Shown here: piece after piece, positions 1 to 33,446 of the stretch
Numbering within the stretch: the stretch's first letter is position 1
Layout of the letters: every line of letters starts with the position of its first letter
Assembly: GCA_003136315.1 (NCBI GenBank)
Contig: PLDW01000183.1
Span: 36,791-70,236, forward strand
Origin: Gemmataceae bacterium
GTDB taxonomy: Bacteria; Planctomycetota; Planctomycetia; Gemmatales; Gemmataceae
Direction: 5' to 3'
Length of the DNA stretch: 33,446 bases
Program-made: the position numbers and the translations under genes
The notes under the pieces: model-generated
The model's input: the letters and a program-made list of their open reading frames with translations, nothing else
What the model was told of the DNA's origin: nothing
Database searches by the model: none

Positions 1-127
1 GCGCAAACCGCGACGTGACCTCAGCTTCGACCAATCTGCCGGTTGACATTGCCCGTCGAGCCCGTTGTCGGGTATCAACACCTTCATTTCCTCACCAGCC
101 ACTCTTTCTGAAGCCGGAGCAAAGGAT

Positions 128-484
128 ATGGGGCAGCCCGTCGTACATTTCGAGATCGGTTGTAAGGACAAGGGTCGATCCGAACAGTTCTTCTCCGACC
201 TGTTCGGCTGGTCCATTCAGAGAACAGGGCCAGCGTCGATGATCGACACCGGCGCGGGTGCGGGGATCAACGGCCACATCACATCCCTTGGTCACGAACC
301 GCACCACTACGTTACTGTGTACGTTCAGGTCGATGACCTGCCCGCATACCTCGCCAAGGTCGAGTCGCTTGGTGGCAAAGTCATCGTGCGACCTGTGGAC
401 ATTCCGACCGGAACCTTCGCCTGGTTTGCCGATCCGGATGGCAACGTTCTCGGGCTGTGGAAACCAAAGGTCGCGGGAGCATGA
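128..484 (+). CDS. VOC (glyoxalase/bleomycin-resistance fold) family protein
   Basis: A 118-residue single-domain protein of the vicinal-oxygen-chelate superfamily. The N-terminus (PVVHFEIGCKD) is the first beta strand; SEQFFSDLFGW is the typical helix and turn; the C-terminal GTFAWFADPDGNVLGLW is the VOC signature that ends the second beta-alpha-beta-beta-beta module. I chose the ATG at 128 because a GGA lies just upstream and the fold starts there; the open frame reaches back to 65, but that extra stretch does not look like VOC sequence. Members bind a divalent metal and include lyases, dioxygenases and resistance proteins, so the substrate cannot be predicted. It is monocistronic: the next gene lies on the other strand. 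Confidence 0.85.
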   Translation: MGQPVVHFEIGCKDKGRSEQFFSDLFGWSIQRTGPASMIDTGAGAGINGHITSLGHEPHHYVTVYVQVDDLPAYLAKVESLGGKVIVRPVDIPTGTFAWFADPDGNVLGLWKPKVAGA

Positions 485-572
485 ATGGGTGGGGTGATAG
501 CGAAAGACATCGGCGTTGACGGAGGGTTCTCGAAGGTCGCAGGCCGGGCCTTCGAGGAACCACACAGCCGTT

Positions 573-19464: not shown

Positions 19465-22443
19465 TCAGTTGAGCAAGTCGTCCGCGTTGTAGCTGGTGTG
19501 ATCCTGGGTATCGGTGTAGAAGAACCAGTCGAGGCCCGTGCCCGCGTACAGGTTGTTGGCGTACTTGGTGTTGTAGGTGATCGACATTTGCGACTGGATG
19601 GTGGCGGCATCCGCGGCGCCAAAGCTGATCCATTCGGTCAGCACCTGGCTCAGCGTAACGCCGGGGGTTAGCGTCACGCTGCCGTCGATCAGGATGTTGC
19701 TGCCGTTCCCGACGTATACGTTGTGCTGGCCGAGCCCAGCCACGATCAGGTTGTCCCCGTTGCCGGCGTTGATGTTGTCGCTGCCGTTGCCCGTCACGAC
19801 CACGTTGTTGCCGTTGCCGGCGTTGATGTTGTCGTTGCCGTTGCCCGTCGTGATCACGTTATTGCCATTGCCGATATTGACGTTATCGTTGCCGCTGCCC
19901 AGCGTCACGGTGGCGGTGCCGTTGCTGTCGTTGATGTTATCGTTGCCGTTGCCCAGCGTGATGGTGCTACTGCCGGCGCCGAGGTTCACGTTGATGTTGC
20001 CGTTGGCACCGCCACCGATGATGGTAGCGGTGCCGTTGCTATCGTTGATGTTGTCGTTACCTGTGCCACTGCCCAGCGTGATGGTACTACTCCCGGCACC
20101 GAGGTTGATGTTGTCGTTGCCGCTGCCCAGCGTGACAGTGGCAGTGCCGTTGCTGTCGTTGATGTTGTCGTTGCCGTTGCCAGCAGTGATAGTACTGCTG
20201 CCGGCACCTAGGTTAATGTTGTCGTTGCCGTTGCCCAGTGTGACGATGCTGCTGGCGCTGGCTGTGACATTGTCGTTTCCGTTGCCCAGCGTGATGGTAC
20301 TGCCCGCGCCAACATTGACGTTGTCGTTGCCATTCCCGGCGTTGACCGAGACGGGGATGGTCAGACTACTGGCCACGTTGATGTTGTCGTTGCCGCTGCC
20401 GCCAAAGAAGACGATGGAGGTGAAGGCTTGGCTGTAGGTGGTCGTGGTGTTGACGCCCCTGAGCGTGGCCACGACTTGTACGCCAGTGCTGCCGGTGTTG
20501 CTGGTCCCGATCGGGTTGATCTGGACATTGTCGTTGGTGCCGCTGCCGCCCACCACGTACAGCGTGTTATTCACGATGGTCTGGGGCTGGTAATAGAAGA
20601 CGTTGGCCTGCAGGTTCGTGACGCCAGTGTTGGTCGTGATGATCTGGGCCAGCGTGGTGCCCTGATTGAGGATCGCCAGGTCCTGGGTGGTGAACAGCTC
20701 GTTGCGGTAGAAGTACTGGTCGCCGTTCTCGAGATTCGAGAACTGCTTGGTGAGGATCGCCGTGAACAATGGACCCATGTCGGAGCCCGGCAGATGGTCC
20801 TCGGCCATGCCGCCCGCGAAGGCATCGATGTCGCCGGCAAAGCCGCCGGCGTCAATGGTCTTGGCGTAGGCTGTTTCGAGTTCTTGCTGGACCTGGACGT
20901 TGCTGGTGATCTGGTCGAAGCCGAAGGTCGCGTCGTCGGTGATGGCTGGCAAGCCGAGGGCGACGCGCACCTGGTTGTAGGTGCCGATGCCGTCGTCGCG
21001 GGCCCGCCAGATGTCGCGGGAGATCAGGTCTTCTCCCCCGCCGCCATTGCCGAACAGCAGGTCGCGGACTGAGGAGACGGCCATGGAATCGTCCGCCTGG
21101 GAGCTGCTGTCGGCGTCCCCCTTGAGAAAGGCCCCGATGTCCGTCCCCGCGAGACCAGTGAAGGGGTCGATCGCGCCACTCGGGTTGACGAGGTTCGCGT
21201 CGAAGAAGTCCACTGCCAGAGGAACATTGCCAACGGAGGTGCCGCTGTTCGCATCGCGCTCCACCGTGTTATTCAGCATGCTGTGACCGAACCGGTACGC
21301 GACTGTGGAGAACTCGGTGGCGATGGAGGCGTTGACGTTGGGGTTGTACCCGGTATACGCCGGGGCGTATGGCCCGAGCAGGGCAGGCAAATACTGGGTG
21401 TAGATGATGTTTTGGTATTCGGCGATGTTGAGCTTGCGGGCCTCCTCGAAGAGCTGCTGGTCGGTCCAGGTGGGGTTTTCCTGCTGCAGCTCAGCCGCGA
21501 TGGCGTTGTGGTTGCGGACGAACAGGGTCGTCAGGGAGGTCAGCTCAGTGTTTTCGTTAGCCCGCACGTCCCCCGCGGCGTAGAGCGAGCTCTCGGGCAG
21601 CGGACCGGAATCCGCCATGTTGAGGGCGTTGATCTGGGCCTGGGTGAAGTACGTGAGGTTGTCGTACGGCAGCATGTTGCCGGGGCTGGTCTTGAGCTGG
21701 CCGCCGGAGAAGGAGCGCAGGGCGTCGGACACCGCCAGGCTGGAGCCGTAGACCTGCGACAGGTCGAGGTAGGAGGTGATGACGTTGGTCTGCTGACGCG
21801 GGTTGCCGGCGCTGCTCCCGGTGGTCGGGTCGTACACGGAGCGGCTGAACGCCAGAGACCCGATCGGATCGCCCGGATTGGTGGTATCGGCGGGGATGGG
21901 GAAACCGTCGTTACCGTCTTTGTTTGCAGCCGGGTCACCGGGAGGAGCGGTTAGCCCGGTCTGGTCCGGAGTGAGGTCCATGTCGTGGTCCATGAACTGC
22001 CCGAAGGAGTATCCGAAGTCGGACAATCCGTTGCTGTCGACGGTATTGATGTCCGTGGCTGGGGATCCGAACAACGTGGGCGATTGGTTGAAGAGGTCGT
22101 TGCTGATGGTGCGGGGGCTGGGCATTGGGAAGCTGGTGACAACGTTGCCGCCGACCCCGGCGGTAGCGCCGCCGTACGGCAGTGAGGGTGTGCTGAACCC
22201 GTTCGCGTATTCCTGGGGAGAGAGCCGCAGCAACTGGATGGCCGCTCCGCCCGGCTGGTCGGCGGGGGCGGCGGCCCAATCCGGGTTGGCGACGTTGTTG
22301 CCAACTTCGTCGATCGGGCTGTAGACACCGACGGCAATGCTGGGCAGAGAGCGGTCTTCCAGCCGCTCCACCTTGAAGCAGCTATGTGGGCGCTGCGCGG
22401 TCGCGTGGCTCTTCGGGCTCGTGAGACGGTTCCTCGTAAACAT
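19465..22443 (-). CDS. Exported animal-type haem-peroxidase-family protein with RTX-like tail
   Basis: A 992-residue protein starting at ATG 22441-22443 (GGGAG 11 bases upstream). The leader has FKVERLEDRSLPSIAVG, the planctomycete exported-protein motif. The core of about 560 residues is of the An_peroxidase (peroxidasin-like) family: FGQFMDHDMDLTPD (distal-His region), SYLDLSQVYGSS, LPYDNL, LTTLFVRNHNAIAAELQ, WTDQQLFEEARKLNIAEYQNIIY, FSTVAYRFGHSML (proximal-His region), RDIWRARDDGIGTYNQVR. Such enzymes oxidise halides or phenols with H2O2. The C-terminal 330 residues are repeats of GNGNDNINxG type, RTX-like but poor in the canonical GGxGxD spacing, then a final globular piece. Likely secreted or cell-surface. 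Confidence 0.85.
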   Translation of the reverse strand: MFTRNRLTSPKSHATAQRPHSCFKVERLEDRSLPSIAVGVYSPIDEVGNNVANPDWAAAPADQPGGAAIQLLRLSPQEYANGFSTPSLPYGGATAGVGGNVVTSFPMPSPRTISNDLFNQSPTLFGSPATDINTVDSNGLSDFGYSFGQFMDHDMDLTPDQTGLTAPPGDPAANKDGNDGFPIPADTTNPGDPIGSLAFSRSVYDPTTGSSAGNPRQQTNVITSYLDLSQVYGSSLAVSDALRSFSGGQLKTSPGNMLPYDNLTYFTQAQINALNMADSGPLPESSLYAAGDVRANENTELTSLTTLFVRNHNAIAAELQQENPTWTDQQLFEEARKLNIAEYQNIIYTQYLPALLGPYAPAYTGYNPNVNASIATEFSTVAYRFGHSMLNNTVERDANSGTSVGNVPLAVDFFDANLVNPSGAIDPFTGLAGTDIGAFLKGDADSSSQADDSMAVSSVRDLLFGNGGGGEDLISRDIWRARDDGIGTYNQVRVALGLPAITDDATFGFDQITSNVQVQQELETAYAKTIDAGGFAGDIDAFAGGMAEDHLPGSDMGPLFTAILTKQFSNLENGDQYFYRNELFTTQDLAILNQGTTLAQIITTNTGVTNLQANVFYYQPQTIVNNTLYVVGGSGTNDNVQINPIGTSNTGSTGVQVVATLRGVNTTTTYSQAFTSIVFFGGSGNDNINVASSLTIPVSVNAGNGNDNVNVGAGSTITLGNGNDNVTASASSIVTLGNGNDNINLGAGSSTITAGNGNDNINDSNGTATVTLGSGNDNINLGAGSSTITLGSGTGNDNINDSNGTATIIGGGANGNINVNLGAGSSTITLGNGNDNINDSNGTATVTLGSGNDNVNIGNGNNVITTGNGNDNINAGNGNNVVVTGNGSDNINAGNGDNLIVAGLGQHNVYVGNGSNILIDGSVTLTPGVTLSQVLTEWISFGAADAATIQSQMSITYNTKYANNLYAGTGLDWFFYTDTQDHTSYNADDLLN
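19742..20400 (-). repeat. Degenerate RTX-like GNGNDN repeat block inside the peroxidase gene
   Basis: About 20 irregular 15-22-codon units built around G-N-G-N-D-N-I-N and A-G-S-S-T-I-T, with near-identical DNA in several (for example the DSNGTATVTLGSGNDN units). Only GGSGNDNINV is a good match to the calcium-binding GGxGxDxUx nonapeptide. The DNA repetition makes length variation by slippage or recombination likely. Confidence 0.8.
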
Positions 22444-22478
22444 GATGATCTGACTCCCTTGGTGTGAAGTGCTGAAAA

Positions 22479-22613
22479 GGGCGATGTGCTCCTGCAAATG
22501 GGCGATGTGCTCCTGCAAATGGGCGATGTGCTCCTGCAAATGGGCGACGTACTCCAACAAAAGGGCGACGTACTCCAACAAATGGGCGACGTACTCCAAC
22601 AAAAGGGCGACGT
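22479..22613. repeat. 21-bp tandem repeat, six full units, upstream of the peroxidase gene
   Basis: Six 21-base units starting GGGCGA. The three nearest the gene carry GATGTGCTCCTGCAAAT; the next three carry GACGTACTCCAACAAA followed by A or T. A partial seventh follows. They lie 36-170 bases before the start codon. Because 21 is a multiple of three, frames are open on both strands; on the minus strand the translation is a heptad string (VAHLLEY, IAHLQEH) in phase with the peroxidase start. Confidence 0.9.
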
Positions 22614-23246
22614 GAAGCCGCACAGTTGGTGGATGCACAGTAAGAAAGAGAAGTCGCGAGTAAGGGGATCGTACACCAGTAGATTTGGACTGCAAGAGAA
22701 AAAATGAGGAAAACCGACAATTCCTAGAAGACCTACGACTCGTGTCTTCAACTTGAACACTGGAGTGCGAGGTTCGCTCATAAGCTAATGAAAACAATCA
22801 ACCCTTAGCCATTTTCACCAGATCGACCTCATCGGATCAAAGGTTCTTGACTGATGGCTCGGCACTCAAGCCGTCCCGTCCAGGGGGGAAATCGAAACCC
22901 CAATTTGCGGAGTGTGGGTATCATCCATCGGCCGTACTGGGAGAATTTCTCTTCCACGTCAACGGTGTCCAGGATACCCTTGGATGTGTTGAAGGTGTTG
23001 TTCAGTTGTCCCTTTCGTATCCTCCAGGGGTTTTCCCTGATAACTGGGCTGGCCGAATCATGTTCGAAGCCATCGGTTTCAGGGTGTATCAGCCCATGAG
23101 TGAAAGCCACCTCGATATCTGTGGGAAAGCCGGCCCTGGGAGTTGCTGGACAATGAATCGCAAAGGAAGACGCACGGTTCGCAAATGGCCTCAGTGTTCG
23201 GTTGACTCATAAATAACTGATTCGCTTGTCTCATCAGGAAATTATT
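22614..23246. other. Intergenic, no gene recognised
   Basis: Between the divergent peroxidase and DUF1559 genes. Open frames on both strands (for example 22829-23110 minus) have no recognisable domains and overlap each other. Promoters for both neighbours must lie here. Confidence 0.45.
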
Positions 23247-24203
23247 ATGAAGAATTCCGTCCCGAAATCTTCTGGCTTCACACTGATCGAGTTACTCGTC
23301 GTGATCGCGATTATCGCGATCCTCATCGGGTTATTGCTGCCCGCGGTTCAAAAGGTCCGGGAGGCTGCTGCCCGGACCACCTGTCAGAATAATCTCAAGC
23401 AGATGGGCCTGGCTTTTCACAACCACCACGACACGCTCGGTGTTTTTCCGAGCGGGGGAGGCTACTGGTATTGGGACCGGACCTGGCTCGGGAGCGTGCC
23501 GGCGGATTACCACTCCCAGAACTGGGGGTGGGGTTACCAGATCCTGCCGTATATCGAGCAACAAAATCTGTGGATCATCCCCCCGGGTGGGCCGGACCCT
23601 GGGCCACCGGGCGACATCACCGTCGCATCCACCCCGGTGAAGATCTACAACTGCCCCTCCCTCCGTGGCCCGACGGTCTTTCCTTACACCCAAGCAGGTT
23701 GGCCAGCTGACGGGAAGAGAGCAGTGGGCGATTATCTCGGGAATGGAGGGACGTGGGGATCGTGGACAGGGTTAACCACAAGCAGCAACAGTCTTGATGG
23801 AGCAATCGTCCCGTCCGTCGTCTATTCCGGTCGGTCCGTGCAGTTTGCGAACATTACCAAGGGAACTTCGACCACACTCCTGATCGGGGAGAAATACCTC
23901 GACAAGACCATCGCCGCAACTCAATCCGACTGCAACGACGACCAGGGTTGGACTGACGGCTGGGACAACGATGTCATCGGCTTCGCCCAGGGTTCCTCGT
24001 CTTCGGGTCCGCCTACCCCCCCTCTGCCAGACGGTTCAGTTGGGACGTGTGGGTTGTACTTCGGCAGCGCCCATCCGGCTGGCATCCAGACAGTCCTCTG
24101 CGATGGTTCCGTACGATTAGTCAGCTATACAGTCAACCCGACTGCTTTCCTGATCTTCTGTCAGGCCCAGAGCGCGGGGGTGCTGGATTGGTCCACGTTC
24201 TGA
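23247..24203 (+). CDS. DUF1559 protein with prepilin-like N-terminus
   Basis: A 318-residue protein. [37 protein letters not shown] is a classic type IV prepilin/pseudopilin start with cleavage between G and [19 protein letters not shown] follows, as in all DUF1559 (SBP_bac_10) proteins. The C-terminus has the H-x9-DG signature ([21 protein letters not shown]). DUF1559 proteins are abundant in planctomycetes, are exported and assembled or anchored like pseudopilins, and have no known activity. ATG 23247 is chosen because AGGAAATTATT precedes it; an in-frame TTG lies upstream. Confidence 0.95.
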
Positions 24204-26804: not shown

Positions 26805-27686
26805 TTAGGGGATCTCGACGACTTCTCCCCCATCTCGGGTCGCCAAAGCAGGAAGAATCGTACTGGCGGGATACCCCAAGAATCGGGCGGATCCATCCGT
26901 AAATGCGAAGTTTGCCCCGCCAGGGTGGAGGCTCCAGAGGTGGTAGCGGTCGCAAGGGTTGTCCGTGCGTCCATACGAAAACACGTAGAACGGGCCAATA
27001 CATTGGGGATCGCTCGCCCAGGCGGCGGTGATGACAAACATCGCCCCGTCTGGACCCCGGTCGGTGCCCCAGCGATACTCGCCACTGCCGGTATACCAAC
27101 GCCCCGCCTGGAGCGAATCGGGAGGGGGCCGTTCCCCGAGCATCACGGTCTGGCTCATTCCATCCGTCACGGCCGCAAAGCGGATCCCCGGTTCCGGCCC
27201 GAGAACCCCGTCCGGCGATCTCGCTCCAAAAATCCCCACATACGAGCCGTAGGCCGCCGTCACACCAAACTGATCCGTGAGAGGAACGAGCAACCGGCCA
27301 TCGGCCGGGCAGGTGTAGAGTTTTACCACCGTCGCATACCCGATGTGCGGGGGGTTGTGGAAGGCGATCGGGTCGATGCGGAATGCCTGGACAGTCGCGG
27401 TCCAAAGTGCCTCCTGCTCCACATAGGGGAGGAGAAACCCCAGCCATCTCAAACTCGTGTTCGGACTCCCCGGACCGGTTTGTGGAGGGAGCCCGCCTTG
27501 CTGATCGTGGTAGGCGTGCAGGGCCAGTGCGATTTGTTTCAGGTTGTTCTGACAGGCCGCCCGACTGGCCGAGGCACGAACGCTCTGGACGGCGGGGAGT
27601 ACCAACGAGATGAGTACCCCCGTCACTCCCAGGACGACGAGGAGTTCGACGATTGTGACGGCCAGGCGTTTTTGTGGGGCGACCAT
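26805..27686 (-). CDS. DUF1559 protein, last gene of module A
   Basis: A 293-residue protein. RLAVTIVELLVVLGVTGVLISLVLPAVQSVRASASRAACQ is the prepilin-like helix; the residue before the hydrophobic core is Ala rather than the usual Gly, so processing by prepilin peptidase is questionable. ACQNNLKQIALALHAYHD and the C-terminal HPGGANFAFTDGSARFL (H-x9-DG) are diagnostic. The start ATG at 27686 lies four bases past the stop of the DUF1573 gene, so the two are coupled in one transcript. Convergent with priA, with only a 94-base AT-rich spacer. Confidence 0.9.
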   Translation of the reverse strand: MVAPQKRLAVTIVELLVVLGVTGVLISLVLPAVQSVRASASRAACQNNLKQIALALHAYHDQQGGLPPQTGPGSPNTSLRWLGFLLPYVEQEALWTATVQAFRIDPIAFHNPPHIGYATVVKLYTCPADGRLLVPLTDQFGVTAAYGSYVGIFGARSPDGVLGPEPGIRFAAVTDGMSQTVMLGERPPPDSLQAGRWYTGSGEYRWGTDRGPDGAMFVITAAWASDPQCIGPFYVFSYGRTDNPCDRYHLWSLHPGGANFAFTDGSARFLGYPASTILPALATRDGGEVVEIP

Positions 27687-27690
27687 TGGG

Positions 27691-28776
27691 CTAATCTCGC
27701 CGACAGGTCACTGCGATCTCGATTGTTTCCAGTGTGCCGTCGGTCGTGGCCCGGAGTCGGACCCTCTTCGTGCTCACCCCGGGTTTGTCGTCAGGGGCCG
27801 GCGACCAGGTGATCCGCACGGTTCGGGTGGGTCCGTCCGCGGGGTTGGCGAACTCGACTGACAAACCGGGGGAAGCCGATGCGACCTCCAATCGGAACGA
27901 TCCACTGGCCGGGCCGCGAATCTGGCAGGTGCCGGTGAACAGTGGGCCAGCTCCGCTCGCCAGCGGGAGAACCAGCGATGCCGGCAAGACCTCGACATTG
28001 GGGACCACGGTCCCAGACACGGCAAGCGACAAGGGCGGGATTCGATCGTCGTCCAGTTCAATCGAAACACGAGTGTCGAGTCGCCCGGGCTGGGAGGTGT
28101 CTGCCGTCACTTCGATACGGCCGAGCAAGGTGCCGTTCGAGTTGAGGTCGGCATCCCCCGCAAGCTGCCAGCGAGCGGTGATACGAGCGTCGGAGCTGAC
28201 CACCTGCCGGACAGCGCGGGGCGTGGCCCCCGGATCGCGCAGTTCCACAACCTGTTGGGCAGACTGCCCGACAGGAACAGCCCCGAACACGACGGAACTC
28301 GGGGTGATCCGCACCTCACCTACCAAGATGCGGAACACCAATGACAGTTGACCCTCGGGCTGCGTGGGGTCGTTTGTCCGGAACCGCACTGTTTGTCGAG
28401 CCGTCTGGCCCGACTCCCCCATCGTCGTGGCCCGCATGACCAACTCGGCCTGTTCACCAGCCGACAAACGGAGTCGCTCGACCCGCTCAAGGCCGCCTTC
28501 CCGCTCCCGCTCCAGGGCTCCGCACGAGCAGGACGTGCGGATTTGATCGATGACCAACTCCACCCCACCCCGGTTCGTGATGGTGAATCGAGCCGCGACC
28601 GGCTCCCCGGATTTTCGCTCACCCAGGTCGATCTCGGCAGGCCCATCGAAAACCGGTTCGACCCCTGTCACCACCGCCCACTCCCGTCGGATCGTGCCGT
28701 CTCGCCAATAGAACAAGACTGCCCCGACCACAAGTGCCAGGACCACCATCCACCCGAATCGTCGAAGGAATCTCAT
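27691..28776 (-). CDS. Membrane-anchored DUF1573-type protein (module A)
   Basis: A 361-residue protein. The ATG at 28774-28776 overlaps the upstream stop (ATGA). An N-terminal anchor (MRFLRRFGWMVVLALVVGAVLFYW) leads to an external region starting with FDGPAEIDLGERKSGEPVAARFTITNRGG and TSCSCGALE, the DUF1573 pattern. DUF1573 is an Ig-like ASH/MSP-type beta domain. A second domain (VRITPSSVVFGAVPVGQSAQQVVELRDPG) and a third (NVEVLPASLVLPLASGAGPL; VRITWSPAPDDKPGVSTKRV) repeat the same fold. Ends at 27691. Likely a periplasmic structural or adhesion protein. Confidence 0.85.
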   Translation of the reverse strand: MRFLRRFGWMVVLALVVGAVLFYWRDGTIRREWAVVTGVEPVFDGPAEIDLGERKSGEPVAARFTITNRGGVELVIDQIRTSCSCGALEREREGGLERVERLRLSAGEQAELVMRATTMGESGQTARQTVRFRTNDPTQPEGQLSLVFRILVGEVRITPSSVVFGAVPVGQSAQQVVELRDPGATPRAVRQVVSSDARITARWQLAGDADLNSNGTLLGRIEVTADTSQPGRLDTRVSIELDDDRIPPLSLAVSGTVVPNVEVLPASLVLPLASGAGPLFTGTCQIRGPASGSFRLEVASASPGLSVEFANPADGPTRTVRITWSPAPDDKPGVSTKRVRLRATTDGTLETIEIAVTCRRD

Positions 28777-28908
28777 CGCGTCACCTGGGGCATCCTGACG
28801 GGAGATTCGTCGTGGCGTCCCCGCCGACGAGCGATCACCCAGGCCGCGATCAGGAGCACAACCGAGCCGCCCAGGACATACCACCACCACGGGGTCGGCG
28901 GCCGACTT
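28667..28908 (-). repeat. 242-bp near-identical repeat, module A copy (pair with 30618-30859)
   Basis: Colinear with 30618-30859 at an offset of 1951 bases without indels; I counted only a handful of substitutions. It covers the end of the membrane-protein gene, the ATGA overlap and the first 36 or so codons of the DUF1573-type gene. Confidence 0.9.
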
Positions 28909-29873
28909 GGGACACGTGGCCCGTCCGGGATCTTGGAGTCAGTTAGGGTTACAATGGGAGCATGAATGCTCGCGGGGGTGTCTGGGCCACTCTGCTTCCC
29001 ATCCGCATCAACCGTGTACTTCACCCGCCTGATAAAGTCCACACATTCGATCCCGGCGATGTTTGGGATGCGGAATGTGTCCGCCCCAAGCGGAATATTG
29101 ACCCGAACATCTGTCAAGGTTGTCCGCACGATTGCCCTGATCTCCCCGTTAACGGAACAGCGATGCTCGATAGTGGTCGGTATGAAGACTCCCGGGGTGG
29201 GTTCGGTGAAGATCAGCACTTCGTCCTCCCACCGGACGTGTTTCGCTTGGACGGGAGTGACCACACGATGGCGGACAAGGTAGTTGACAGTGGGATCGAA
29301 CCGGAGTTCGAGCCGGCACCACTCGTGGGAGGAGTCGACCAGAATTTCCCCTGGCTTCACACCACGCCCAGCGGGAACCAGACGAACAACATTCAGCGTG
29401 TGGGGCTGAGACAGGAGCTCGTCGAACGGACGTGCGCGCGGATATTCCCGACCCTGGTGGCGAAACACAAGGTACTCCCAAATCGCCTGCCCAGCTGCAC
29501 GGTCCACCGCGTTGCGGCCAAGTGTCGGCCCCATGAGGTTTGGCCTTCGTCCCCAGGTCAAGCCTTTCCCTCCACGGACAATAGAGTCACGCTCATGATT
29601 GTTGTCTCGCTCTTGCAATCGAAAAGTCTCAGGTGTGTACCAGTATTGACCCGAGGAGATGGAAAAATACGATTGCGCGTCTTCGGGTGGCGGGGTCTGG
29701 ACCCAATCACGTTCAAATCGCAATGACAGTGAAGAGATGGCCCCCAACGCTGCATTGTTTCCATCCCTGGCAAGCCGCAGGAGAGCCTCATCTACCTCGG
29801 CTCCAACAGCCAGTGGGCCAGCCAAAAAAAGTAACAGAAATGTCAAACACCAGCGGAACCAATCGGGTGTCAT
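28773..29873 (-). CDS. Exported single-pass membrane protein (module A)
   Basis: A 366-residue protein with AGGAGG six bases before its ATG. WFRWCLTFLLLFLAGPLAVGAEVDE is a signal peptide. The outside region begins with EALLRLARDGNNAALGAISSLSLRFERDW and later has RFDPTVNYLVRHRVV, WEDEVLIFTEPTPGVFIPTTIEHR and VRVNIPLGADTFRIPNIAGIECVDFIR. The alternating strands look like LolA-type half-barrels; I infer that fold only. A C-terminal TM (PWWWYVLGGSVVLLIAAWVIARRRGRHDE) anchors it. Its stop overlaps the DUF1573 start. Paralogues lie at 30724-31815 and 32737-33312. Confidence 0.8.
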   Translation of the reverse strand: MTPDWFRWCLTFLLLFLAGPLAVGAEVDEALLRLARDGNNAALGAISSLSLRFERDWVQTPPPEDAQSYFSISSGQYWYTPETFRLQERDNNHERDSIVRGGKGLTWGRRPNLMGPTLGRNAVDRAAGQAIWEYLVFRHQGREYPRARPFDELLSQPHTLNVVRLVPAGRGVKPGEILVDSSHEWCRLELRFDPTVNYLVRHRVVTPVQAKHVRWEDEVLIFTEPTPGVFIPTTIEHRCSVNGEIRAIVRTTLTDVRVNIPLGADTFRIPNIAGIECVDFIRRVKYTVDADGKQSGPDTPASIHAPIVTLTDSKIPDGPRVPSRPPTPWWWYVLGGSVVLLIAAWVIARRRGRHDESPVRMPQVTR

Positions 29874-29972
29874 CGCGACCTCCTGCTGTAGATCAGGACA
29901 ATGAATCGGGACGTTGCGAGACCCAGGCTCGAACGAGTGACGTTGAAGTAACCCAGCACTTTGCATCAATGC

Positions 29973-30308
29973 TTATGGGCACTGCATATTGGTCACGCAA
30001 CCCTTGACTGTCCAACCGCACTGGAATCCGTTATCGCTTCTCGTTCCGGGCGGGCACGCCTGCTGGGAGGAGGGTGGCATCCAGCACGAGTACGATCCGT
30101 CGCCGGTATTGTCGCAACCCGGGAGAGGCGCCTCAAGCTGTCCGATCCCTGTGCAATAGACGTTGGGACTGATCAGATAACTTGAGGGGCAGTTGATGCT
30201 TCCGGTGCAGACGGCACCGACGAGACAGTCGCCTGATCGCCCATATCCGGCCATACCAACAACGATGAAAAGAATCAGCCATACGGTCGGATTTCGATAC
30301 AGAGACAT
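29973..30308 (-). CDS. Small Cys-rich secreted protein, first gene of module A
   Basis: A 111-residue protein with AAGGAGGAGCTC before its ATG. PTVWLILFIVVGMAGYG is a signal peptide. The mature region has ten cysteines, starting SGDCLVGAVC and ending GCVTNMQCP. Its paralogue at 31929 keeps SGDCLVGAAC, a conserved CW pair (SCWMP versus TCWLP) and the GCVxNxxCP end but otherwise diverges. Even cysteine number suggests disulfide bonds outside the membrane. Not a lipobox protein. Function unknown; could be a secreted peptide-like or wall-associated protein. Confidence 0.75.
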   Translation of the reverse strand: MSLYRNPTVWLILFIVVGMAGYGRSGDCLVGAVCTGSINCPSSYLISPNVYCTGIGQLEAPLPGCDNTGDGSYSCWMPPSSQQACPPGTRSDNGFQCGWTVKGCVTNMQCP

Positions 30309-30378
30309 GAGCTCCTCCTTGGGTCCGTGTTGTGCAGTGGCTTGCGATGACAGTTTGGTGCCAACTTGAGTGATGTTA

Positions 30379-30408
30379 AACGTACCACGGCTTGGATTCG
30401 CCTGTCAA
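30379..30408 (-). promoter_or_regulatory. Sigma70-like promoter of module A
   Basis: TTGACA at 30403-30408 and TACGTT at 30379-30384 with an 18-base spacer, 70 bases before the Cys-rich start codon. Conserved in the second copy at 32365-32394. Confidence 0.5.
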
Positions 30409-30410
30409 CG

Positions 30411-30429
30411 ATGATTTTTGAAAAAAATC
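30411..30429 (-). terminator. Weak AT hairpin between modules
   Basis: On the minus strand, GATTTTT-TTC-AAAAATC lies eight bases past the module B stop (30437) and just before the promoter of module A. AT-rich with T-runs, but no good tail, so termination would be partial. Confidence 0.3.
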
Positions 30430-30436
30430 GGATTCG

Positions 30437-30727
30437 TTAGTAATGAGAGAGATTACCAACGGCGTTAATTCCCAACGGCTCAGGTGCCGGAACGTCAGAA
30501 ACGAGTTTCAGGTCAGGAGATGCGATCGGTTCGACGATCTCTGTAACCCCGGGCAGTATCAACGGAGTCAGCTCACGGGAGAGAAGGATTACTGCGCTCG
30601 CGGGGCGGGTTCGGCCGGTCATCACCGCCCACTCCCGTCGGATCGTGCCGTCTCGCCAATAGAACAAGACTGCCCCGACCACAAGTGCCAGGACCACCAT
30701 CCACCCGAATCGTCGAAGGAATCTCAT
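30437..30727 (-). CDS. DUF1573 gene reduced to its anchor with a new tail (module B)
   Basis: The ATG at 30725-30727 overlaps the upstream stop (ATGA). The first 36 or so residues (MRFLRRFGWMVVLALVVGAVLFYW, TIRREWAVMTG) match the module A DUF1573 protein at the DNA level, but right after TG the sequence switches to RTRPASAVILLSREL and TEIVEPIASPDLKLVSDVPAPEPLG, ending at residue 96. No DUF1573 domain remains. The join at about 30617 is the edge of a 242-bp repeat, so a recombination event is the likely origin. A short anchored peptide may still be made. Confidence 0.65.
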   Translation of the reverse strand: MRFLRRFGWMVVLALVVGAVLFYWRDGTIRREWAVMTGRTRPASAVILLSRELTPLILPGVTEIVEPIASPDLKLVSDVPAPEPLGINAVGNLSHY

Positions 30728-30859
30728 CGCGTCACCTGGGGCATTCTGACGGGAGATTCGTCGTGGCGTCCCCGCCGACGAGCGATCACCCAGGCCGTGA
30801 TCAGGAGCACGACCGACCCGCCCAGCACGTACCACCACCACGGGGTCGAGGGCCGACTC
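30618..30859 (-). repeat. 242-bp near-identical repeat, module B copy (pair with 28667-28908)
   Basis: See its partner. The left edge at about 30617 is the exact join where the DUF1573-derived gene changes tail. Confidence 0.9.
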
Positions 30860-31815
30860 GGGGTAAACTGCTCGAATGCGATCGCACTGCTTATGGGATT
30901 CCCAGGCACGATGTTCGCGGGCACCTCCGGCCCGGCGGCGTTGCCATCTGCGTCGGCCTTATACTTCACCCTGCGGATCGTGTCCACACACTCCATCCCG
31001 GCGATGTTCGGGATGCGAAACGCATCCGCCCCGAGCGGGATGTTGACCCGAACCTCGGTCAGGGTCGTCCGGACGGTCGCCCGAGGCACTCCTTTCACGA
31101 TGTGTCGGTGTTCAATTTGAGTGGGGAGGAACACGCCGGGTGCCGTTTCGGAGAAGGCGAGAACCTCATCCTCCCATCGAACATGATTGGCCTGGGATGG
31201 AACGAATGATTTCTGGCGGATCAGGTAGTTCGCGCGGGGGTCGAAGCGGAATTCAAAGCGACCCCCGCTGTGAGTCAGGTCAATCAGGATGTCTCCAGGT
31301 CCGCCCCCGTTCACGGGGGGAACCCGGCGAACGGCGTTCAGAGTCGGGGGTAAGGACAGGATCTCGTGAAACAGGAGTTGCGCTGGTACTTCTCGACCTG
31401 GATGGCGGAATAGCAGGTATTGCGACATCTCCCCACCGGCCGGTGCCCTGTCCGGGAGGATGCCCAGCCCGGGCTTGGGCCAGCCTGGCCCATACCCCCA
31501 GATCAGCGTCTTCCCCCCGCGGATGATCATATCGCGAACGCCAGTCTCTTGTTGATCCTGCACTCGATAGGTCGTCGTGTTGGACCAATAGCGACCCGAA
31601 GGAGTGAAGTAAGACCCAGGCCCGCCATCAACTGGAGGTTTCAGAAGCCACGTCCGGTCGTAACGGCAGGACAGGGACGTGATGGATTCGATGGCTGCCC
31701 TGTTTCCGTCCCGAGCGATCCCGACGAGAACCTCATCGGCTTCTGCCGCGGCCGCTCGTTGACTCATGAGGCCAGTGAGCACTGCCAGACACCACATCGC
31801 CCGATGGATCATCAT
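30724..31815 (-). CDS. Exported single-pass membrane protein (module B)
   Basis: A 363-residue paralogue of 28773-29873: signal peptide (MWCLAVLTGLMSQRAAAAEADE), EVLVGIARDGNRAAIESITSLSCRYDRTW, FRFDPRANYLIRQKSFVP, WEDEVLAFSETAPGVFLPTQIEHR, NIPLGADAFRIPNIAGMECVDTIR and the C-terminal PWWWYVLGGSVVLLITAWVIARRRGRHDE anchor. The last 40 or so residues are nearly identical to module A, while the signal-peptide half is clearly diverged, so the copies have exchanged their 3' ends. The MM start at 31815 has no good ribosome site; the frame is open to GTG 31938, inside the upstream gene. Confidence 0.8.
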   Translation of the reverse strand: MMIHRAMWCLAVLTGLMSQRAAAAEADEVLVGIARDGNRAAIESITSLSCRYDRTWLLKPPVDGGPGSYFTPSGRYWSNTTTYRVQDQQETGVRDMIIRGGKTLIWGYGPGWPKPGLGILPDRAPAGGEMSQYLLFRHPGREVPAQLLFHEILSLPPTLNAVRRVPPVNGGGPGDILIDLTHSGGRFEFRFDPRANYLIRQKSFVPSQANHVRWEDEVLAFSETAPGVFLPTQIEHRHIVKGVPRATVRTTLTEVRVNIPLGADAFRIPNIAGMECVDTIRRVKYKADADGNAAGPEVPANIVPGNPISSAIAFEQFTPSRPSTPWWWYVLGGSVVLLITAWVIARRRGRHDESPVRMPQVTR

Positions 31816-31928
31816 GGCACCATGAAATAATTGTATATATAATAGACCAATTACTCGTATGCCCAAGCTCCTGGCAAAATCAGCCGCGATGGTCAACAAA
31901 CCGCGAATGAACTCTGGACTTTTCTCGT

Positions 31929-32294
31929 TTATGGGCACGGTGTGTTGAGAACGCAGCCACGGTAGGAGAAGGTACAGGTGCCTGAAAAGTCACTGTATTG
32001 ACCCTGACAAGTCATGATCGTGACATTATCACCGCCAGTGGGTAACCAACAGGTGTCTGGTGGATTATTATTCGAGGTCGAGTCACATGCGGAACAAGCA
32101 GGCGATGTTGCTACTGCATTAAGACAGTAGAGAGGTTGGCCTTGATTGTTAAGTCCAACATAGTAACTTGATGCACAGGCTGCAGTACTGTTACAGGCAG
32201 CGCCAACGAGACAGTCGCCCGAAAGCCCGTAGCCGACATACCCGGCCACAATGCAGAGAACCAGAGAGAGAGTCAGATTTCCACGCAGAGACAT
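31929..32294 (-). CDS. Small Cys-rich secreted protein (module B)
   Basis: A 121-residue paralogue of 29973-30308. Signal peptide LTLSLVLCIVAGYVGYG; 11 cysteines in the mature part (SGDCLVGAACNSTAACAS, PACSACDS, DTCWLP, MTCQGQ, RGCVLNTPCP). The first and last blocks match the module A copy while the centre differs in length and sequence, the pattern expected of a variable surface or secreted peptide. Same AAGGAGGAGCTC ribosome site, lying in a 242-bp repeat shared with module A. Stop at 31929, 114 bases before the membrane-protein start. Confidence 0.75.
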   Translation of the reverse strand: MSLRGNLTLSLVLCIVAGYVGYGLSGDCLVGAACNSTAACASSYYVGLNNQGQPLYCLNAVATSPACSACDSTSNNNPPDTCWLPTGGDNVTIMTCQGQYSDFSGTCTFSYRGCVLNTPCP

Positions 32295-32528
32295 GAGCTC
32301 CTCCTTGGGCCAGTGTTGTGTAGTGGCTTGCGATGACAGTTTGGTGACAACTTGAGTAGTGTTAAACGTACCACAGCTTGGATTCGCCTGTCAACGATGA
32401 TTTTTGAAAAAAATCGGATTCGTTAGTAATGAGAGAGATTACCAACGGCGTTAATTCCCAACGGCTCAGGTGCCGGAACGTCAGAAACGAGTTTCAGGTC
32501 AGGAGATGCGATCGGTTCGACGATCTCG
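32287..32528 (-). repeat. 242-bp near-identical repeat, second copy (pair with 30301-30542)
   Basis: See its partner. Contains the promoter and start of the module B Cys-rich gene and the 3' end of the module C remnant. Confidence 0.9.
32365..32394 (-). promoter_or_regulatory. Sigma70-like promoter of module B
   Basis: TTGACA (32389-32394), 18-base spacer, TACGTT (32365-32370); identical in both boxes to the module A promoter. Confidence 0.5.
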
Positions 32529-32756
32529 GTGAGGGAGACGAAAGCCGGAAGCCTAACAGCTCAAAGAACAAGAGAGGGCGGAATTGCGGAGAGGGGAGAG
32601 AGTGGATTCGGTCACGATGGCCACTCTCGACGTATCATGCTGTCCTGCCACAGGATCGGAATCGCCCTGGCCGCGAAAGCCGGGCTCGCCACTCACCCAG
32701 GTCATTGGAAGAACGATATCGGAGCGACTGGGGTGCTCAGGAGGGTTGTTTCTCAT
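32423..32756 (-). pseudogene. Decayed DUF1573-anchor-type gene (module C)
   Basis: The 3' part encodes the same tail as module B (LTEIVEPIASPDLKLVSDVPAPEPLG, ending NLSHY at 32423). Upstream, a frame with stops shows AFAARAIPILWQDSMIRREWPS, recognisably equal to VVGAVLFYWRDGTIRREWAV of the intact anchors. At least two stops separate this from the tail. So the module C copy has lost its frame, although the tail is kept. Confidence 0.6.
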
Positions 32757-33312
32757 TGCGCCCCCGGCGACGGAGGATCAACCAGGCGGGGATGCCGAAC
32801 ACAATTGAAAGGCCGAGTATATCCCACCACTGGGTGGGCGGTCGTTCTGGATGGGGTCGCTCGCCAGGCGCCATCGGAGGTGGGAAAAAATCCGGGGCTG
32901 GCACCGCTGCCCAAGGGATTTCCGGCTCGATTGGGTTTCCGTCGCTATCGACCTTGTATCTCACCTGGCGGATCATGTCCGCGCATTCCATCCCGGCGAT
33001 GTTCGGGATGCGGAACGCATCCGGCCCAAGTGGAGCATTCACCTGAACCTCGGTCAGGGTTGTCCGCACGACTGCCCGAACCTCTCCGTTTACGGAACTA
33101 CGGTGCTCAATCGTGGTTGGGAGGAACACACCAGGAGTCGGCTCGGCGAACGTCAGCACCTCGTCTTCCATGAAGTACTCTTTGGCTCTGGCCGGGACAA
33201 CAGACTTGTACCGAATGAGGTAGTTCGCGCGGGGGTCGAACTGGAACTCGAACCGACACCAATCGTGCGTCAAGTCGACCAGGATACCCCCGGACCCAGC
33301 CCCGCTCGCGCA
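32737..33312 (-). pseudogene. 5'-truncated exported membrane protein (module C)
   Basis: Homologous to the last 190 or so residues of the module A and B membrane proteins: GILVDLTHDWCRFEFQFDPRANYLIRYKSVVPA, EDEVLTFAEPTPGVFLPTTIEHRSS, VNAPLGPDAFRIPNIAGMECADMIR, and a C-terminal anchor WDILGLSIVFGIPAWLILRRRGRNE. The signal peptide and first half are missing. The frame is open back to a TGA at 33382-33384 and includes FAAVRKVL, faintly like LNAVRRVP of module B, so the copy may instead be frameshifted at about 33360. A TTG at 33273 could start translation, but without a signal peptide. Confidence 0.6.
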
Positions 33313-33326
33313 TTGGTCTCTACAGC

Positions 33327-33446
33327 TTATGTTGTTTGTTTTGAGTACTTTGCGAACAGCGGCAAATGTCGTTTGATCATTTCATTTGCACTGTCCGGCC
33401 CATCGCGACTGAGCCATGTCGCGGCTTGTTGGAGAACCCACAATCC
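33327..33446 (-). CDS. 3' end of a gene cut by the window edge
   Basis: An open frame of 39 codons from the edge: GLWVLQQAATWLSRDG, then ANEMIKRHLPLFAKYSKQ, stop TAA at 33327. The composition looks coding and helical. It could be the end of an unrelated gene inserted into module C, or the out-of-frame continuation of the module C membrane protein. No family recognised. Confidence 0.4.
   Translation of the reverse strand, partial: GLWVLQQAATWLSRDGPDSANEMIKRHLPLFAKYSKQTT

Follow-up and report, generated by a model that had tools for sequence, protein, structure and literature searches.

The DNA analysed here, which we call the window, is a stretch of 33,446 nucleotides (nt) from the genome of a Gemmataceae bacterium (11.6 Mb in 524 contigs). 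It covers positions 36791–70236 of contig C303, and its right end is the end of the contig. Close to this end it carries a tandem array of genes on the minus strand. Unit A of this array is complete and consists, in leftward order, of a secreted cysteine-rich protein (CYS), an exported membrane protein (MEM), a DUF1573 protein and a DUF1559 protein. The features of the three units A, B and C are listed below (window positions; aa, amino acids).

26805–27686, minus: unit A DUF1559 (SBP_bac_10) prepilin-like protein, 293 aa (PF07596 and TIGR04294 above cut-off)
27691–28776, minus: unit A DUF1573 protein, 361 aa, with hydrophobic N-terminus, CxC motif TSCSC and a further immunoglobulin (Ig)-like stretch (PF07610)
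28773–29873, minus: unit A MEM, 366 aa, with signal peptide, predicted LolA-like domain, linker and C-terminal membrane anchor (translation, structure model, Foldseek)
29973–30308, minus: unit A CYS, secreted cysteine-rich protein, 111 aa, 10 cysteines of which 8 align across the family (translation, alignment)
30309–30544, minus: unit A conserved leader (97% identity over 236 bp with the unit B leader)
30437–30727, minus: unit B DUF1573 remnant, a 96-aa frame of 39 native codons (95% identity) followed by leader read-through
30724–31815, minus: unit B MEM, intact gene for 363 aa (58% identity with the MEM of unit A)
31929–32294, minus: unit B CYS, 121 aa, 12 cysteines, intact (41% identical to unit A CYS)
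32295–32530, minus: unit B conserved leader (leader alignment, sliding identity)
32737–33310, minus: 3' part of the unit C MEM, ending at the insertion point (5' part on contig C342)
33311–33446, no strand assigned: insertion-sequence end that carries the terminal repeat CATTGGTCTCTACAG and runs off the contig (repeat and adjoining 9-bp duplication CGCGAGCGG)

The tandem array had been proposed in the original prediction, made from the sequence alone, and is confirmed: repeats of 255, 300 and 248 nt with 68–96% identity recur at a period of 1945–1995 nt, well above chance, and chance similarity was rejected as their source. The coupling of the genes by ATGA was also correctly described, as the DUF1573 gene of unit A overlaps MEM by these four bases and DUF1559 follows four bases further on. 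A gene order recurring in all units is true in part: it is complete in unit A, and CYS and MEM are both intact in unit B, but unit C has no CYS and no DUF1573 was detected in it. Similarly, B and C had been called progressively degraded, and the DUF1573 of unit B is indeed broken after 39 codons, but the rest of this unit is intact. The unit B MEM looks maintained, as the ratio of non-synonymous to synonymous substitution (dN/dS) between the two MEM genes is about 0.30 over the whole gene and falls to 0.10 in residues 170–300, with synonymous sites near saturation.

Unit C is not merely a degraded module. Simple decay was rejected, since an insertion sequence interrupts its MEM at 33310/33311 and the contig breaks inside that element. 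The missing 5' part of the gene was found at the end of contig C342 (match 17–547, minus strand). Both MEM flanks carry the same 9-bp duplication CGCGAGCGG, which is one of four exact pairs among the 15 ends of the element, and the genome contains 15 copies of the terminal sequence CATTGGTCTCTACAG and none of the reversed control. For 14 of these 15 copies the distance to a contig end is at most 23 bases, and for the window copy it is at most 136. Inverted terminal repeats, target duplication and several copies were all found, and the break in MEM bears the mark of a transposition. The interior of the element is unassembled, with 19–136 bases inside each end available, and a transposase gene would lie in this interior. 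Ends of the same element are located at window positions 33311–33446 and on contigs C71, C153, C156, C212, C231, C240, C291, C324, C329, C342, C348, C378, C407 and C420, and it breaks the assembly at many places.

On C342 the upstream neighbour of the unit C MEM is a permease-like gene (named by eye), and no CYS gene is present there. A related gene was seen in a second genus, again directly upstream of MEM: the two (L009 on C342, 913–3015, minus; L153 on G053:C262, 2256–4367, plus) are 45% identical over 676 aa, and no such match occurs at the other 67 loci compared. This suggests a conserved chromosomal site.

The cassette of four genes is present at other places as well. The host genome has the full order CYS-MEM-DUF1573-DUF1559 at two more loci (on contigs C295 and C188) and therefore three full copies. 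For a wider comparison we compiled 85 MEM frames and left out 11 shorter than 300 aa, resulting in a table of 74 full-length loci from 31 genomes; two weak MEM matches (G033:C17 and G067:C270) were not included and four loci on contigs already counted were left out. The full order on one strand was found at 26 of the 74 loci and in 13 of the 31 genomes (the host and 12 others) belonging to two families. CYS is located upstream of MEM at 34 of the 74 loci, DUF1573 is present at 39 and DUF1559 at 57, and 14 MEM have no partner. The CYS calls in this table are not independent, because they were made with profiles built from the first-round loci, or by a rule on cysteine content. Restricting the analysis to the 57 loci with enough flanking sequence (27 genomes, 17 of the 74 loci left out) gave 27 loci with CYS immediately before MEM, 31 with DUF1573 immediately after it and 20 with all four genes. 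The opposite placements are rare, with DUF1573 just upstream at four loci and CYS just downstream at two. DUF1559 is found downstream of MEM on the same strand at 44 of the 57 loci, compared to three upstream on the same strand, none downstream on the other strand and one upstream on the other strand.

CYS and DUF1573 also tend to occur together. DUF1573 is present at 22 of the 27 loci with CYS and at nine of the 30 loci without it (Fisher p = 1.5e-4), or, counted per genome, in 14/14 and 6/13 (p = 0.002), with all Fisher values being optimistic as loci within one genome or clade are not independent. Eleven of the 74 loci have DUF1573 and no called CYS. By eye a cysteine-rich frame could be recognised at four of them (L064, L069, L140 and L141) and a CYS fragment at two (L054 and L134), and at one more, the second MEM of L076, a CYS sits before the first MEM.

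MEM itself was detected in at least 20 of 81 genomes of the family (first profile, 24 candidates scored per genome) and in at least 33 of 102 genomes of the order (better profile, 20 candidates per genome). Across the phylum it was found in at least seven of 294 genomes including the host, the best other match having an E-value of 4.5e-21; just seven candidates were scored per genome, and misses outside the order are therefore likely.

An alternative explanation of these data would be the ordinary tandem duplication of an operon which is kept by descent and whose four products have no joint activity. The DUF1559 family is very large, with 81 matches in the host genome, three of which are the module genes, and a passage of PMC8567305 reports that DUF1559 genes are spread evenly and frequently have signal-peptide genes next to them. 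Moreover, the two copies of the C188 array are 93–94% identical and point to a recent duplication. We nevertheless regard this explanation as unlikely, as the full order is kept in 13 of the 31 genomes and in two families despite an identity of mostly 14–31% to the window proteins, and as the direction bias of DUF1559 described above argues against it.

The CYS proteins have a length of 79–186 aa with 8 to 15 cysteines and, by eye, a signal peptide. Eight cysteines align in all 30 members; as aligners favour cysteines this was tested against shuffled sequences. A C-x6-C tail is present in 25 of the 30, whereas the shuffles reached a mean of 9.2 and a maximum of 18. In a leave-one-genome-out test 24 of the 30 members scored higher than all 40 of their own shuffles and six did not, with a slight leak since the left-out members had been part of the alignment from which the training rows were taken. 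Neither the single CYS and MEM proteins of the window nor the 30 CYS proteins gave an informative match in Pfam or NCBIfam: at E ≤ 0.1 three families matched one CYS member each, at 0.044–0.08. Pfam contains a model for the YTV domain; the only Pfam match among the 30 proteins at this threshold was DUF4796_N (one member, 0.078), and the YTV domain was not found in them.

Searching with a CYS profile gave 23 matches in 28 genomes, all 23 directly before MEM, and at least 21 matches from at least 10 of 102 genomes of the order (45 candidates scored per genome), again all directly before MEM. All matches belong to the training alignment except one new member, G076:C975. Two genomes (G004 and G031) were positive in the first search and gave no match in the second. 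That CYS occurs only beside MEM is therefore supported by the profile matches, not proven. At two loci of family f2 (L145 and L141) short frames with a recurring VCVCVCV-like stretch were seen upstream of MEM near CYS.

Cysteine-rich proteins with the YTV motif rank among the top-scoring cell-wall proteins of Gemmataceae in the data excerpted from PMC8567305, and CYS with its 8 to 15 cysteines and apparent signal peptide could likewise be a disulfide-cross-linked structural protein of a proteinaceous wall or outer layer, with the other three proteins being assembly helpers and no display or secretion taking place. However, no wall-protein model matches any of the 30 CYS, and the small size of the protein and its strong variation between adjacent copies are unlike a structural protein. 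Within the order, CYS matches came from only 10 of 102 genomes, a minimum figure from a search that misses known members. We consider such a wall function improbable, but it deserves some weight.

MEM had been described as a single-pass membrane protein, which is correct concerning its membrane anchor and can be specified as signal peptide, predicted LolA-like domain and C-terminal anchor. The structure model was built from six sequences (mean predicted local distance difference test (pLDDT) 71.6, predicted template modelling score (pTM) 0.62). In a Foldseek search of this model against the PDB 23 of the 25 matches at E ≤ 1e-3 were LolA, LolB, LprG, LppX or RseB, the best LolA match having E = 2.1e-7 and a template modelling (TM) score of 0.59 by target; over the 23 matches the TM scores are 0.23–0.37 by query and 0.32–0.60 by target. 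Sequence comparisons gave much less: among 33 MEM members PF17131 (LolA_like) matched three, best at E = 1.4e-4, and PF03548 (LolA) matched one at 0.27, and the best LolA hit of the MEM profile against PDB sequences had E = 0.42. Proteins of the LolA/LolB superfamily are soluble or lipid-anchored and have no transmembrane helix, whereas a C-terminal hydrophobic stretch is present in 70 of the 74 MEM. On the basis of the model, MEM is a predicted LolA-fold protein, but neither its topology nor, as far as the sequence matches go, its sequence makes it a LolA.

RseB accounts for two of the 25 chains, and together with the C-terminal hydrophobic helix this could indicate that MEM is an RseB-like receptor for CYS or a periplasmic lipid and that the cassette works in signalling or in a stress response. 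Its RseB matches are weaker than those to LolA, the tail past the helix appears short and basic by eye, and no regulator was noticed in the conserved order, although no search aimed at sigma or anti-sigma genes was made. A receptor of this kind seems very unlikely to us.

For the DUF1573 protein of unit A, PF07610 scored 48.4 bits (cut-off 26.1) and choice_anch_D 45.6 (cut-off 45), whereas NCBIfam OS_HP2_seleno with 49 bits stays below its cut-off of 100. All 35 module DUF1573 proteins show a CxC motif, 32 of them by a strict pattern. Tables of PMC9312934 and PMC13188914 enter DUF1573 as a selenoprotein family with the motif UGC; these entries hint at a reactive redox thiol, and we infer from them a possible role of DUF1573 in folding. 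At L052 and L168, both in G061, which belongs to the genus of the host, a second small DUF1573-like frame with CxC was seen by eye about 460 bp upstream of MEM.

The presence of a DUF1559 gene in unit A, as originally proposed, was verified with 119.1 bits for PF07596 (cut-off 23.3), and its H-X9-DG domain TIGR04294 scored 36.7 (cut-off 19). The N-terminal motif is A-VTIVE with the glutamate at +5, and the Pfam N_methyl model stays below cut-off (12.6 compared to 21.2). By a strict pattern the prepilin motif is present in 43 of 53 DUF1559 proteins, although in two of these 43 (L143 and L148) the match is internal by eye; several of the remaining proteins have near variants. A type II secretion ATPase, platform protein or secretin is not among the four cassette genes, and the genome was not searched for them. 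A second DUF1559 gene is located at window positions 23226–24203 (plus strand), less than 4 kb from the array and on the opposite strand, and the region 19465–22797 (minus strand) encodes a long protein resembling by eye a heme peroxidase followed by GNDN repeats.

Units A and B differ in a regular manner when their identity is followed in 80-column steps with gaps scored as differences. The leader core is 98–100% identical and 88–93% nearer to the CYS start; identity drops across the CYS signal peptide and reaches 25–33% in most of mature CYS (25–45% over the whole mature part). In MEM it is about 46–65% over most of the gene, 70–80% near the end of the LolA domain and 45–51% in the linker, and the MEM anchor and DUF1573 start are again 91–100% identical. 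The unit ends look recently shared or converted between A and B. Positive selection on mature CYS could not be shown because its synonymous sites are saturated. In the leader of unit A a TTGACA near 30408 and an AAGGAGG before the CYS start were noticed by eye. A standard sigma-70 promoter was rejected, as a promoter scan called none there, and the leader is also not a genome-wide repeat, since apart from one 23-bp match it is found only before the CYS genes of units A and B.

Such a contrast between leader cores and mature CYS, along with the divergence of MEM residues 30–170 (44% aa identity) and the fact that CYS matches adjoin MEM only, would also fit a role of CYS as a diversifying peptide in antagonism or signalling, with MEM as the matched immunity or release partner and the pair arrayed for several specificities. 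However, MEM is present without CYS at 30 of the 57 loci, DUF1573 and DUF1559 would be left without a role, and the diversification cannot be supported by positive selection due to the saturation. We therefore regard this as quite a small chance.

We tentatively favour, at somewhat less than an even chance, that the array is a tandemly expanded Gemmatales envelope cassette that folds, exports and displays the variable CYS protein. Leader, anchor, DUF1573 and DUF1559 are constant, mature CYS and the MEM domain are variable, and this suggests cargo and carrier served by a shared apparatus. CYS would leave the cytoplasm by Sec and form disulfides in the periplasm, aided by the CxC site of a membrane-anchored DUF1573. 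Tethered to the inner membrane, the LolA-like domain of MEM may carry or chaperone CYS or an accompanying hydrophobic ligand, and the pseudopilin DUF1559, assembled by the general type IV pilus or type II machinery, might deliver CYS to the surface or display it there. Additional CYS-MEM pairs could use the single downstream DUF1573-DUF1559 pair, allowing several versions of the cargo with one constant apparatus. In both arrays of the host genome intact DUF1573 and DUF1559 are found in the last copy only, and the first DUF1573 of the C188 array has a large internal deletion. Our confidence is high for the cassette as a unit and low for each transport step, and the surface system named in the original prediction is a putative one, deduced from the sequences.

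Several points weigh against this proposal. That conserved neighbourhoods hold all four families and that homologues seldom lack their partners had both been expected: the families do stand together at the loci counted above and every CYS profile match precedes MEM, but at 10 of the 57 loci MEM has none of the three partners, and at 11 DUF1559 is the only one present. MEM is thus not tied to the module and has a role without CYS. The link between CYS and DUF1559 is weak (24/27 and 20/30 loci, p = 0.06), the Fisher values for CYS and DUF1573 are optimistic as mentioned, and the hunt for missed CYS by eye was one-sided, covering DUF1573 loci only. The 28-genome CYS search missed eight of the 30 training members though their genomes were covered, and a stray CYS of similar divergence may be missed too. 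Fold prediction for CYS failed to give a confident model (pLDDT 42.9), and a lipoprotein carrier of the LolA type is no obvious fit because by eye CYS has no lipobox. The CxC motif may be general to DUF1573 and not specific for the module, and decay following duplication would explain the loss of DUF1573 from the inner copies equally well.

Regarding novelty, the description as undescribed agrees with our literature search, as open-licence papers, in the portions available, gave none with both DUF1573 and DUF1559 and no description of the cassette. It is possible, if rather doubtful, that we are dealing with an undescribed Gemmatales system for envelope delivery or display, with a hypervariable eight-cysteine cargo, an anchored LolA-fold carrier, a CxC DUF1573 and a dedicated DUF1559 pseudopilin, its arrays sharing one apparatus. 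According to a section of PMC10632474, DUF1559 proteins form the largest paralogue group of Planctopirus limnophila with 68 members, unassigned in function, two of them essential. One DUF1559 branch is now tied to a defined set of partners and a candidate cargo, and its function thereby becomes testable, so that the cassette offers a concrete handle on the purpose of a planctomycete protein family that is among the largest still unexplained. If the proposed system is real, part of this large family would be cargo-specific pseudopilins. In addition, the CYS family has no model in the Pfam and NCBIfam versions searched, and the family of anchored, predicted LolA-fold MEM proteins is almost unclassified in Pfam.

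Compared to known systems, the predicted periplasmic domain of MEM has its fold, a helix with an incomplete beta barrel, in common with the LolA/LolB superfamily (LolA, LolB, LprG, LppX and RseB), from which MEM differs by its C-terminal membrane anchor, its fixed neighbours and the lack of a LolA-type Pfam match in at least 29 of 33 members. CYS is exported, cysteine-rich and planctomycetal like the YTV-type wall proteins of Gemmataceae, as these appear in part of PMC8567305, but it is distinguished from them by its length of 79–186 aa, its own framework of eight cysteines and the absence of Pfam and NCBIfam matches. The CxC of the module DUF1573 could correspond to the UGC motif of the DUF1573 selenoprotein family, although the module proteins are longer, with a hydrophobic N-terminus and an additional Ig-like stretch, and are encoded directly after MEM. 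Finally, the unit A DUF1559 passes both cut-offs (PF07596 and TIGR04294) of the planctomycete DUF1559/SBP_bac_10 prepilin-like proteins, and the module branch differs from this family at large in being the last gene of a defined cassette.

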